A stretch of 28,265 nt of DNA from the IMG/VR virus record IMGVR_UViG_3300032293_000065, positions 1 to 28,265 of that record; one strand, given 5' to 3'. A program made the translations under genes and the position numbers. The stretch comes from a virus. Positions 8,878 to 28,265 of this stretch are shown here, piece by piece. The notes below the pieces were generated by a model. The model searched no databases. It had not been told where the DNA came from and was given only the letters and a program-made list of their open reading frames with translations. How positions within the stretch are numbered: the first letter of the stretch is position 1; each line of letters begins with the position of its first letter.

Positions 8878-9399
8878 CTAAGTTCCCGGAGTAGTTAAAG
8901 CTGCTGCTACACCTGAAGCAACCGCAGGAGCAAGAGCTGCCTCTGCACCCGTGAAAGTCAAAGTGTAACCACTTCTATCTCCTTCAGCCGTTCCTGTACC
9001 AGAGTTGCCACCAGTAAGGTCTAAGCCTCTTGTTTTACCTAAGTACCAGAATAAGCCATTGTTATCTTTGGCAACTGCTACTAAAGTGTTTTGAGCCAAC
9101 AACAAGATTTCGTTTCTTGTGTTCGCTTGTAATTTGTTTAATACGATAGTTAATTCTGGAGCATAGAAAATAGTCCCGTTTTGTACGTTTGCGTTTACGT
9201 TCTCAACTAATTGAGAAGTACCCTTAACAAGTTCGTACTTATAGAACTTCTTACCTGCTGCCTTAACAAGAGCGGTAATAACACCACTTGCTTCGGTAGT
9301 TGAGGTAACATCTGATGCTGCTGCAAAATAAACTTCGGTTATACCGCCTAAACTGTCTTTACAATCTAAGGTATAATTTTGAGTTAAAGCACAAGGCAT
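8878..9399 (-). CDS. Probable major tail tube (or other abundant virion) protein
   Basis: The 173-residue product starts MPCALTQNYTLDCKDSLGG, has a beta-rich middle, and then TRGLDLTGGNSGTGTAEGDRS followed by YTLTFTG and an Ala/Pro-rich tail. The GDRSGYTLTFTG stretch and overall size fit tail tube subunits of long-tailed phages. The gene stands between two terminators directly after the major capsid gene, consistent with a protein needed in many copies. Capsid decoration protein is the main alternative. Confidence 0.6.
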   Translation of the reverse strand: MPCALTQNYTLDCKDSLGGITEVYFAAASDVTSTTEASGVITALVKAAGKKFYKYELVKGTSQLVENVNANVQNGTIFYAPELTIVLNKLQANTRNEILLLAQNTLVAVAKDNNGLFWYLGKTRGLDLTGGNSGTGTAEGDRSGYTLTFTGAEAALAPAVASGVAAALTTPGT

Positions 9400-21044: not shown

Positions 21045-22196
21045 TTACGCTTCTGTTTTAACATAAGGTTGACCATTCCTTTTAACTTCTAATGTTGGGT
21101 CAAGTTTAATCATTCGGTCTATAATTGTTTGGCAGTAATTAGGACTCATTTCAACCATAAAACACTTCTTTTTAATTTCCTCACAAGCAACCATTGTAGA
21201 ACCTGAACCACCAAATCCGTCAAAAACATTATTACCTTTTGTATATTCTTGTAATAAATCTGCGCACAACTTTATTGGCTTTTGTGTAGGGTGTACTCTT
21301 TTACCATTTTCCCCTTCCTTAATCATTCCGTTCCAAATTTGTTTTTTTATTCTTACTGGACTATCAAAAGAAGTCCAAGCCATTTCCCCATCAGCAAAAT
21401 TATTGCTATTCATATCTCCCCTTTTATCCCATATTATCCAACAAGGTTTTGGTTCTAAAAAGTCGGTAAAATAGTTCCCACCCCATATTATATAATTTTC
21501 GAACCCTAATGATTGACAAGTATGATAAAACTCTTTTGCAGTTTCGGTTGTATCGTCTCCAATTATTTCTGCATAAACTCCATTTTTTGCTAAATTATCT
21601 CCACCTACTTTACCATTTTTACCTACTACCTTAATCCCGTAAGGTGGGTCTGTAAAAACCATATCTGCCTTTTGCCCGTTCATTAAATTAGCTACTTGGT
21701 CGCTATCCGTACTATCTCCACAAAGCAATCGGTGTTCCCCTATCTCAAATAAATCTCCTAATACTATATCGGTTTCAATTCCTCCGTCTGGAACTGCAAA
21801 GTCATCTTCCTCTGCTTCTATAACTTCTGCATCAAAGCCAGGTATGTCTAATCCCCAATCTTGTAATTGATCTGCATCCCAATTATTAGCTAAGTCGTTC
21901 CAATCCCACTCTCCATAACCGACGTTGTCTTTAACTATAAACTCCTTTTGTTGTTGCTCTGTTAATTCACTTGCTTTAATAATTGGTATCTCTTTAAGTC
22001 CTGCTTCCTTACAAGCCTTTAATCTCATATTGCCACCAAGTACAACCATATCGTCATTAACTACAATAGGTCTAAGGTTTAGCATTTGTGGGAACTCGTT
22101 AATTGACTTTACGAGCTTTGCAAACTTATCGTCTTTAATTATTCTGGGGTTGTTAGGGTTTGCTTTTACTGTGTTGATTGGTACGTTTTGTATCAT
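21045..22196 (-). CDS. ParB-like domain / DNA methyltransferase fusion
   Basis: The 383-residue product starts with a ParB/Srx-like domain (about 1-110; VKANPNNPR, then VVLGGNMRLKACKEAGL). It continues with an amino-methyltransferase domain with DPPY at 183-186 (in FTDPPYGIKV) and FDGFGGSGST at 325-334. The order DPPY before FxGxG, with HPTQKP at 302-307, marks a beta-class N6-adenine or N4-cytosine methylase. No cognate restriction gene is visible, so it is an orphan methylase, probably protecting phage DNA or marking it for packaging or expression. It overlaps the upstream gene by four bases (ATGA). Confidence 0.9.
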   Translation of the reverse strand: MIQNVPINTVKANPNNPRIIKDDKFAKLVKSINEFPQMLNLRPIVVNDDMVVLGGNMRLKACKEAGLKEIPIIKASELTEQQQKEFIVKDNVGYGEWDWNDLANNWDADQLQDWGLDIPGFDAEVIEAEEDDFAVPDGGIETDIVLGDLFEIGEHRLLCGDSTDSDQVANLMNGQKADMVFTDPPYGIKVVGKNGKVGGDNLAKNGVYAEIIGDDTTETAKEFYHTCQSLGFENYIIWGGNYFTDFLEPKPCWIIWDKRGDMNSNNFADGEMAWTSFDSPVRIKKQIWNGMIKEGENGKRVHPTQKPIKLCADLLQEYTKGNNVFDGFGGSGSTMVACEEIKKKCFMVEMSPNYCQTIIDRMIKLDPTLEVKRNGQPYVKTEA

Positions 22197-26614: not shown

Positions 26615-27373
26615 TTAAGAAAATGAAACTTTACCATTTTTAATTTGCAAATCAAAAAATAAAGCTACGGCTACGGCTCTTGCCTGGTTCTTTAACCATT
26701 GCTCAGTCCATTCGTCTCGGTACTGCTTAGCGCTTATTATATCCATTTTATTAGCCTTGAAGGTAATAATCTCCATAAGTTTCTTTTTAGCAAGTGCGCC
26801 ATCTTCTTTTGTCCATACCTTAATGCCTGAACTATTAAGCTTTGTAAACACACTTAATGGGTTAAATAACCTATCAAAAGTTCTATTCTCAAGCAGCTTA
26901 TATTCTTGATAACTGTAATCAATTATTTCTAAATCGGTCAAGTGTGGTATTGCTTCTACTCGTTCTTGTGGCATCATTTTTCTTACTTCGTTTGCTTTTT
27001 TCTTGTACCTATCCATTACTTGACTAAAGTATGCAGGACTAAAGTTTTGGTAATGGTCTATAAAGTCATTAGCTACCATTTGCTTAAACGCTACTTTAAC
27101 TTCATTTATTGTAAACGCTCCGTACTCGGTTCTTATCCAATCCTCTAAAATTGCTAACTTAACTTCGCCAGGATTGTTAATACCCACAAGCTGCATCAAG
27201 TAAACAAGGTTTTGTTTAAATATGGTAGAGTTCAGATTGCGAACTCTCTCCCCCGAAAAGCTTTGCATAATCTCCTTCTCCATAGGAAGTAGAGTGGATA
27301 TAGTTGTAGTTTCTAAGGTTGTCGAGTTCGTGCTTATTAAGTTTTGGCTTATTGTTTGTAGTTCCTTTTGCAT
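26615..27373 (-). CDS. Replication-region protein of unknown function
   Basis: The 252-residue product (if the ATG at 27373 is used) is helical. It has a Thr/Ser-rich N-terminus, a central YGAFTINEVKVAFKQMVAND with ARN-like helices, YFSQVMDRYKKKANEVRKMM and a C-terminal basic helix pair. It begins inside the replication gene and overlaps it by 158 bases in another frame; an internal ATG (27283, MEKEIMQSF) would reduce the overlap to 68. Position after the replication protein suggests a helicase loader or other replisome component. I see no Walker motif, so this is position-based only. Confidence 0.65.
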   Translation of the reverse strand: MQKELQTISQNLISTNSTTLETTTISTLLPMEKEIMQSFSGERVRNLNSTIFKQNLVYLMQLVGINNPGEVKLAILEDWIRTEYGAFTINEVKVAFKQMVANDFIDHYQNFSPAYFSQVMDRYKKKANEVRKMMPQERVEAIPHLTDLEIIDYSYQEYKLLENRTFDRLFNPLSVFTKLNSSGIKVWTKEDGALAKKKLMEIITFKANKMDIISAKQYRDEWTEQWLKNQARAVAVALFFDLQIKNGKVSFS

Positions 27374-28025
27374 CTTCTTTTAAATTAAATAGACCTTTCC
27401 AACCATTTGCCATTGATTGATTAATTATTTTTATGGCAATGTCTTCGTGTCCTTTTGATAAAATTAGTAATTCTTTTAATGTTGCAAGTTCACTTTGGGT
27501 TGTCCTGTATGTAAACTTAAATTGTTTTTTCTTATAATCCTTCCAACTAAACCATAATTTTTCAAAATCCTTAGAAACAAAAGGTAGCTCTATACTTTCT
27601 TTTATTTCTTTTATATCCTTTACTTTACTTTCCTTTATAGCATTGCGGTCGCATTGCGGTGGCATTGCGTTTGCATTATTTGTGCTGCTATCCCATCGTT
27701 TAAAGGCATTTTGTCTGGCTTTTTTACTCTTCGTATCTCGTTCATCCATACGTTTTTGTACTGACATACTACCAAAGTTTTCGCCTTCAAATACAAATAA
27801 CCCGAAGTCCTGTATTACGCTTCTAATTGTTTCGCTATCCACTCGCATATCATAAGCAATGCCATCGCAGTCCATTCGCAATGCGTTTGCATTATTATAC
27901 AAGTCCTCAATGATTGTCCAGAAGATGCCGTAACCAAGCATTCCGTGTTTCCTAATAAGGAATTTAATCTTCTCATCGTTCCGACTATTATAGTCGTGTG
28001 AGAAGTAAAAGGTTTCTTTTGCCAT
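27216..28025 (-). CDS. DUF4373-type replication protein
   Basis: The 269-residue product starts with a domain (1-115) carrying YFSHDYNSRNDEKIKFLIRK and MLGYGIFWTIIEDLYNNANA, the signature of the DUF4373 (Lin1244/Lin1753-like) N-terminal domain found in phage replication initiators. A Gln/Asn/Pro linker (about 115-130) leads to a C-terminal part with WFSWKDYKKKQFKF and INQSMANGWKGLF, common at the end of phage replisome organisers. Three 11-bp tandem repeats lie in the DNA coding for the linker, and a further copy of the repeat unit lies in the region coding for residues 44-50. The ATG follows directly on a terminator T-run. Confidence 0.8.
   Translation of the reverse strand: MAKETFYFSHDYNSRNDEKIKFLIRKHGMLGYGIFWTIIEDLYNNANALRMDCDGIAYDMRVDSETIRSVIQDFGLFVFEGENFGSMSVQKRMDERDTKSKKARQNAFKRWDSSTNNANAMPPQCDRNAIKESKVKDIKEIKESIELPFVSKDFEKLWFSWKDYKKKQFKFTYRTTQSELATLKELLILSKGHEDIAIKIINQSMANGWKGLFNLKEDAKGTTNNKPKLNKHELDNLRNYNYIHSTSYGEGDYAKLFGGESSQSELYHI
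27640..27683. repeat. 11-bp tandem iteron-like repeats in replication gene
   Basis: On the plus strand the units are GCATTGCGGTC (27640-27650), GCATTGCGGTG (27651-27661), GCATTGCGTTT (27662-27672) and the diverged GCATTATTTGT (27673-27683), joined without gaps. The period of 11 is not a multiple of three, so the protein does not repeat. Confidence 0.7.
27878..27896. repeat. Distal copy of iteron-like sequence
   Basis: GCAATGCGTTTGCATTATT matches 18 of 19 bases of 27662-27680 (GCATTGCGTTTGCATTATT), 216 bases away in the same direction. A further GCAATGC lies at 27856-27862. Confidence 0.65.
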
Positions 28026-28063
28026 AAAAAAATAAACCCCGATAGCTGCGAACTACCAGGGTT
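28026..28063 (-). terminator. Terminator hairpin directly before replication gene (possible attenuator)
   Basis: On the minus strand an 11-bp stem (28053-28063 with 28035-28045, two G-T pairs) closes a 7-base loop TTCGCAG. It is followed by TA and seven T (28026-28032) that reach the ATG of the replication gene. The loop is perfectly complementary to the loop of the upstream hairpin. Confidence 0.7.
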
Positions 28064-28082
28064 ATTATTATTTAACCACTAA

Positions 28083-28114
28083 ACACATAGGCGGTTCGCA
28101 GTTCGTCTATGTGT
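28083..28114 (-). promoter_or_regulatory. 5' leader hairpin with loop complementary to terminator loop
   Basis: On the minus strand ACACATAG (28107-28114) pairs with CTATGTGT (28083-28090) around a 16-base loop. The loop holds CTGCGAAC (28094-28101), the exact complement of GTTCGCAG (28046-28053) in the downstream terminator. The hairpin should sit at the very 5' end of the transcript. Confidence 0.65.
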
Positions 28115-28122
28115 CTTTTTTA

Positions 28123-28152
28123 CAAATATAAACTAATTTTCCGTAATTTCAA
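28123..28152 (-). promoter_or_regulatory. Bacteroidota-type promoter for replication operon
   Basis: On the minus strand TTG (28150-28152) is followed after exactly 19 bases by TATATTTG (28123-28130), a full TAnnTTTG match. It overlaps the end of the upstream coding sequence. Transcription would begin near 28117. Confidence 0.75.
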
Positions 28153-28265
28153 TCTTTTGGCAAATTCTTTTTAATTTGTCCTTAAACCAATCTTCCGTGT
28201 CAATTAGGTTGTTTGCTTGTTTGATATTGTGAATTGCGGTGGTATGGTCTTTAGTGCCGGTGTAT
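28133..28265 (-). CDS. DnaA domain IV-like protein, 5' part beyond window
   Basis: The last 43 codons are seen, ending with a stop at 28133. YTGTKDHTTAIHNIKQANNL matches the DnaA box-binding signature of domain IV (GxxDHTTxxHxxxK), which reads DnaA boxes through a helix-turn-helix. A short charged tail follows (KLKRICQKIEITEN). It may be a small phage protein holding only this domain, or the end of a longer initiator. A host dnaA gene at a phage boundary is unlikely, since the next genes are phage genes. Location upstream of the replication protein suggests a role in origin binding. Confidence 0.7.
   Translation of the reverse strand, partial: YTGTKDHTTAIHNIKQANNLIDTEDWFKDKLKRICQKIEITEN

Follow-up and report, generated by a model that had tools for sequence, protein, structure and literature searches.

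What do two hairpins with complementary loops do directly ahead of a phage replication operon? The question is raised by the right end of the window, by which we mean the whole stretch of DNA analysed, a linear IMG/VR record of 28,265 bases. The leader element lies on the minus strand and, in the order of that strand, comprises TATATTTG (28130–28123), a -7 box of the Bacteroidota promoter type (TAnnTTTG), then TAAAAAAG, the hairpin H1 (28116–28081), a linker, the hairpin H2 (28063–28035) and a T tract (28034–28026) that runs into the ATG (28025). Here we describe how the two hairpins are conserved, and we weigh the ways in which they might act.

A two-hairpin leader ahead of a replication initiation gene

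The first gene of the operon (27216–28025, minus strand) encodes a Lin1244/Lin1753-like (DUF4373) replication initiation protein, with matches to PF14297 (E = 9.9e-11) and phrog_2562 (E = 1.6e-16). An earlier note on this DNA had put both hairpins, the second as a terminator, in one leader of a replication operon, downstream of a promoter; the assignment of the first gene agrees with this, and promoter and terminator are conserved. The note had also placed H1 correctly but made it too short, and the 16-base loop it described is really a 10-base loop, closed by two pairs (28105/28092 and 28104/28093) that sit on a 1x1 internal loop and a 10-pair stem. H2 has an 11-pair stem, G-U pairs included, and a 7-base loop. 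The leader fold is far more stable than those of shuffled sequences (z = -4.3). Of the parts of an attenuator built on an intrinsic terminator, a promoter, a leader, and a GC-rich hairpin with a T tract ahead of the first gene are present.

In Flavobacterium, the promoter box sits at -12 to -5 (PMC9723704), which would place the start of transcription near 28118 and give a terminated RNA of about 90 bases. The distance from promoter to H1 differs among leaders. Promoter type and terminator style together point to a host among the Bacteroidota.

Wherever the upstream side of a leader was read, the leader has a DnaA domain-IV-like gene on that side and the replication operon on the other. In the window this upstream gene is cut by the contig end, leaving its 3' end (28133–28264, minus strand) with the stop directly before the promoter; in relatives it encodes 142 residues, and an intact homologue is found in record L168. 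The 43-residue fragment in the window has no Pfam DnaA match, and it is from the motif KDHTTAIHN that we take the gene to be DnaA-like. On the downstream side, the first gene is either endonuclease-like or encodes one of three replication protein types that are related in their C-terminal parts. The replication gene of the window and its homologues has had its N-terminal domain swapped (DUF4373, MAKDPAFLFY and MAKRFTDTEK types), with the related C-terminal part kept. In some relatives an HNH or GIY-YIG endonuclease-like gene sits between leader and replication gene, and the leader stays at the head. In records L007, L014, L075 and L060 such a gene, HNH (MTYxEK..) or GIY-YIG-like (MAQLKY..), is inserted exactly between the two and takes over the start position of the leader.

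All 12 matching related records carry one sense-strand copy of the leader each. Neither an integrase (PF00589) nor an HTH_3 repressor (PF01381) was matched in 13 related records, none of them confirmed complete, and these records thus give no sign of lysogeny. Elsewhere in the window (21048–22196, minus strand), a gene for a ParB N-terminal domain joined to an N6/N4 DNA methylase lies one gene away from that for the terminase large subunit.

Covariation supports a loop–loop helix

The H2 loop, TTCGCAG (28052–28046), together with G28053 is the exact reverse complement of CTGCGAAC (28101–28094) in the H1 loop, as the earlier note had reported for the terminator loop and one flanking base. CTGCGAAC (28094–28101, minus strand) would be the 5' half of a loop–loop helix and GTTCGCAG (28046–28053, minus strand), the terminator loop with its closing G, the 3' half. 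We estimate that an 8-base match between these two loops would arise by chance roughly once in 10^4 hairpin pairs. Homologous leaders were gathered from IMG/VR by searches with the downstream protein and with patterns of the DNA, and 63 distinct ones, kept only if they contained AGTGGTTAA, were aligned. All lie right before the first ATG. The loop–loop helix is paired in 497 of 504 cells (98.6%), leaving 7 unpaired, and five of its eight pairs are altered on both sides. Cells changed on both sides number 144, compared to 50 in shuffles; the covariation score of 0.68 falls to 0.17 on shuffling and does not exceed 0.12 when the pairing is slid. Both stems are likewise conserved in the 63 leaders: 99.3% of cells are paired in H1, where three pairs are altered on both sides, and 97.2% in H2. 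Pair 28105/28092 of H1 swaps from C-G to G-C in relatives.

This conserved, covarying pairing leads us to reject a chance match. The earlier note had proposed covariation among related phages as a check and relatives lacking the complementarity as evidence against the contact; what the relatives hold is the opposite, a match that is kept and covaries. The rebuilding of the loop pairing by matching mutations indicates that it matters to the phage. The same note had allowed for either a kissing contact or a switch between structures. The letters one base outside the helix are A-C and C-A in 63 of 63 leaders. Since the match does not extend past the loops and the two stems are kept, a kissing contact that leaves both hairpins intact is favoured over a mutually exclusive, longer helix, and the switch half of the proposal is disfavoured.

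The pairs also point to the molecule and strand concerned. G-U pairs are many in the stems and almost absent from the kiss (1 of 504 cells), which argues for RNA of the coding sense, since the other strand would have A-C mismatches. On the opposite strand of the window H1 is terminator-like, but the T tract needed there is not kept in all relatives.

The second hairpin resembles an intrinsic terminator

A T tract follows H2 and runs into the start codon in every leader: all 83 have T at -6, and 66 of the 83 have T at -3; among other genes of the window, 23 of 31 have A at -3. In Flavobacterium johnsoniae, initiation is favoured by adenine at -3 and -6, and well-translated genes are poor in U at -3 (PMC6847099). 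The T tract is thus unfavourable for translation in Bacteroidota and better explained by termination, for which it looks to have been kept. Furthermore, the model matches in 395 Bacteroidota genomes were only ordinary terminators that look like H2, several of them directly after gene ends, and hairpins like H2 with T tracts stand at Bacteroidota gene ends, for example in records L331–L333. We infer that H2 probably terminates transcription in vivo.

A structure this close to the ATG might alternatively act on translation or on mRNA stability, the kissed 5' structure protecting the mRNA or blocking ribosomes at the ATG 9–14 bases downstream. H1 would lie near the inferred 5' end, and the terminator stem reaches to about 10 bases from the ATG, within the -20 to +20 zone in which structure lowers initiation in F. 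johnsoniae (PMC6847099). However, such an element by itself leaves unexplained why a T tract that disfavours initiation is conserved directly after the stem, and we regard this reading as distinctly unlikely.

We lean mildly towards a cis-acting transcription attenuator that heads the replication operon and has its closed state locked by the kiss. RNA polymerase would start at the TAnnTTTG promoter and transcribe H1, the linker and the terminator hairpin in turn, whereupon the terminator loop would pair with the waiting H1 loop over 7–8 bases and produce one compact unit of H1, kiss and terminator. Because the kiss leaves the terminator in place, we take the closed, kissed form as the terminating state, from which a structured RNA of about 90 bases would be released. 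Readthrough into the replication genes would then require that the unit be opened or not form in time. A factor that recognises the invariant linker and the 3' arm of H1 (ATGTGTTTAGTGGTTAA) would probably bring this about, or else a weak competing pairing of the linker with the 5' arm of H2. The kiss is thus presumed to favour termination and to be regulated by something. A terminator this strong may need no kiss, and the kiss could also slow the folding of the terminator and so raise readthrough. We count it in favour of an attenuator that the layout heads the operon even where the first gene is homing-endonuclease-like, and that it recurs with unrelated sequence.

An invariant linker and a candidate antiterminator

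TTTAGTGGTTAA (28072–28083, minus strand), which takes in the last three bases of H1 and the start of the linker, is identical at every base in 63 of 63 leaders, in part through our own selection of leaders for AGTGGTTAA. It is present as a single copy in the window and in each record. The ATGTG that precedes it is nearly as constant, record L008 being one base short there, and the arm of H1 opposite ATGTG varies and even mismatches. Since the 3' arm of H1 and the linker stay constant despite this variation, something beyond pairing seems to read them. The earlier note had included neither this linker nor the loop types and the wider spread of the layout described below.

One conceivable reader is a protein bound to DNA. 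The linker would then be a binding site in an operator or a replication origin, for example for the DnaA-like protein encoded upstream, and this would suit both the invariance of TTTAGTGGTTAA and the likeness of its complement, TTAACCACT, to a DnaA box (7/9). Neither a cluster of DnaA boxes nor further copies of the linker were found nearby, however, and frequent G-U pairs together with loop–loop covariation call for RNA. DNA hairpins or an origin are accordingly disfavoured, and we hold a DNA-level element to be very improbable. A ribosome is another conceivable reader: across H1 and the linker runs the frame ATG TGT TTA GTG GTT AAA TAA (MCLVVK), open in most leaders and with its stop codon just before the terminator, and translation of such a leader peptide could control the terminator. 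But the frame is lost in L008 and the stop in L009, L071 and L262, and the peptide was rejected as not retained in all leaders; no synonymous change occurs anywhere, so the constraint is on the bases, and other leader families have a different linker. A leader-peptide attenuator therefore appears extremely improbable.

Within the attenuator that we prefer, the linker might also act by pairing. GGTTA (28077–28073) can pair with TAACC (28064–28060) in a weak predicted hairpin (28060–28077, minus strand) that involves the 5' arm of H2. This hairpin arises in predicted folds of growing transcripts, and the pairing is predicted, with energies of -3 to -7 kcal/mol, for most leader types, which is suggestive of an antiterminator. 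In the aligned leaders the linker stays the same while the 5' arm of the terminator varies, and the two show no covariation, which weakens the case for this candidate. Between H1 and the terminator, several unrelated leader families (records L496, L501, L502, L504, L510, L514, L524 and L535) share a small hairpin in the linker, GGTT..AACC, which resembles the linker of family 1, the family of the window.

Loop types are reassorted against both flanks

Six loop types, each with its exact partner, occur in the family: CTGCGAAC, CTACGAAC, GTACGAAC, GAGCGAAC, AGTCGAGC and AGTCCAGC. Their frequencies are intermediate (29, 21, 17, 15, 13 and 6). Computed energies of own loop pairs range from -9.4 to -13.0 kcal/mol; most types cross-pair weakly, and some still cross-pair (CTGC with CTAC, -9.4). 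Among phage pairs with at least 97.5% identity over the 600 upstream bases, only 28% have the loop type in common, compared to 19% at random. The T/C variant of the promoter, compared in leaders chosen by TATATT[TC]G, is common to 98% of pairs alike to this degree. Where the first gene is at least 98.5% identical over 300 bases, 48% of pairs have the loop type in common. The loop types (28094–28101 and homologues) thus show almost no linkage to the upstream gene and only partial linkage to the first gene, which suggests that they switch faster than both flanks. As the region is mosaic throughout, this reassortment is no proof of selection for diversity.

Loop types could reflect an RNA that acts in trans. 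The loops of the terminated RNA of about 90 bases would pair with nascent leaders of the same type and shut the replication operon; the RNA would accumulate with phage copy number and so serve to sense that number or to exclude superinfection, in the manner of plasmid antisense attenuators and the P4 and P1 immunity RNAs. In agreement with this, the six types cross-pair mostly weakly, have intermediate frequencies and are reassorted against both flanks, and in pT181 attenuators the specificity of the kissing hairpins can be re-engineered (PMC3753616). However, a contact in cis needs the same complementarity and is simpler, some types do cross-pair, the region is highly recombinant anyway, and the 13 related records give no sign of lysogeny. 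We consider action in trans unlikely. That the kissing loops form a recognition code between phages, by which the terminated leader RNA shuts the replication operon of a co-infecting phage of the same type, strikes us as decidedly doubtful; in that reading, the loop types would diversify and be reassorted like incompatibility or immunity groups, in phages free of repressors.

Leaders of unrelated sequence share the layout

In more distant relatives the leaders follow the same plan without evident sequence similarity. A second leader family has AACTTATTG as its linker and a terminator that is longer; its loop pairs number eight, each with exact partners (GTTGCAG, GTACCAG, GTCGGAT, GTACGAG, GTCGCAT, GTAGGAT, ATGCGAC and GTCGTTT). 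Groups ahead of MKYFLHD-type replication genes have the loops GTAGGAGT, GTCGGAGT, GTCGTAG, GTGGTAG, GTGAGAG, GTCGAGA, GTTGTGAG, TATAGGG and others. In all, more than a dozen loop pairs other than those of family 1 stand in the same layout, with unrelated sequence, before the replication genes of other phage groups. Because MAFFT misaligned the second family, we used a permutation test with one member per sequence cluster (n = 36), chosen regardless of complementarity. When the first 50 bases were compared with the terminator region, 28 of 36 leader clusters had a match of at least 7 bases to the own partner; 9.3% of cross pairs had one, and none of 20,000 permutations gave more than 12 such clusters. 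Two things make the test conservative, namely a few clusters that are no true leaders and cross pairs that join members of the same family. Such a leader is missing from some related loci, among them L404–L417, in which another gene extends as far as the replication gene.

Several records hold leaders or structures elsewhere. Record L221, a family-1 phage, carries a second, unrelated kissing leader (9048–9139) with the loop GTGGTAG and its own promoter, before an HNH-type homing-endonuclease-like gene that comes right after the terminase gene. At L173:13770–13880 (-), L179:2270–2370 (+) and L147:4900–5020 (-), counted on the named strand, a terminator loop is complementary to the loop of an upstream hairpin before an ATG; these contigs were caught by the loop pattern scan only, not as relatives, and their leaders have no Rfam match. 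The distant relative L040 (2890–3000) has a large pseudoknot just before the ATG (GCTTAGTCCGA with TCGGACTAAGC, CCTACGC with GCGTAGG), possibly a rearranged form of the same idea. In L342, L347, L367 and L374, second-family terminator stems have a recurring purine-rich internal loop, which might be a protein-binding or tertiary motif.

As for cellular homologues, nine pattern matches in genome contigs have no loop match and look like chance. BLAST found no similar DNA in cultured phages, and the kissing descriptor had no match in the whole records of Flavobacterium phages 1/32 and 11b, Leeuwenhoekiella Arctus_1 and Porphyromonas phage005b or in a 5.4-kb part of Pan5. A first generic scan, of poor recall, yielded no other Bacteroidota leader family, and a second missed the known family 1; because recall was poor, absence from these scans means little. 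The carriers are many uncultured phages, which probably infect Bacteroidota.

Relationship to known leader RNAs

The leader has no Rfam match at the gathering score, nor was Guanidine-II among the lax matches. The best weak match is the trpB motif (RF04312), at 27.1 bits compared to a gathering score of 59; the two share two hairpins followed by a T tract, and the weak alignment is full-length, but the leader scores below the gathering threshold. The remark in the earlier note that no named family is known to have this layout therefore holds. No description of the layout was found in the literature covered, which leaves out most subscription journals.

The loops of the Guanidine-II (mini-ykkC) riboswitch are short, conserved tetraloops (ACGR). 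Like the phage leader, this riboswitch has two leader hairpins in tandem, between whose loops a kissing contact is proposed (PMC7544219, PMC5486947). In contrast, Guanidine-II senses guanidinium, whereas the phage leader has freely changing loops of 7–10 bases that make 7–8 pairs (10 and 7 bases in H1 and H2, in six sequence types) and has a terminator as its second hairpin. Attenuators of the pT181 type sit in the leader of a plasmid replication gene. They too have a terminator in the leader and kissing hairpins that set specificity (PMC3753616). Their partner is a separate antisense RNA, while the partner loop of the phage leader lies within the same RNA. The P4 CI and P1/P7 C4 RNAs have complementary segments in one phage leader, before replication or antirepressor genes, and are linked to premature termination. 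These are processed RNAs of temperate phages, whereas the 13 records related to the window have no integrase or HTH_3 repressor match; the leader has no Rfam match to C4.

A final comparison is with put of phage HK022. The part of PMC9378689 consulted describes putL as about 70 bases with two stem-loops, just downstream of PL, and thus, like the leader, a short two-hairpin phage RNA near an early promoter. The leader, with its two stem-loops just after the promoter and about 90 bases, might in the same manner bind RNA polymerase once folded and let it pass terminators further down the unidirectional genome. But put suppresses terminators and is none, whereas the second hairpin of the phage leader is itself terminator-like and carries a T tract in all leaders; stems and loops vary with only the linker fixed; and no loop–loop helix is described for put in that part of PMC9378689. 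We find a put-like antiterminator quite improbable. We have filed the phage leader as an attenuator-type leader RNA with a layout outside any named family.

If the attenuator that we prefer is correct, a large group of uncultured phages, probably of Bacteroidota, would control entry into replication by a terminator that is always loop-paired to an upstream hairpin. With about twenty interchangeable natural loop pairs on few scaffolds, these leaders are a clean system for how RNA tertiary contacts steer intrinsic termination. They would also provide a set of naturally distinct RNA parts, and a way to find the leaders of replication operons in phages without a cultured relative.
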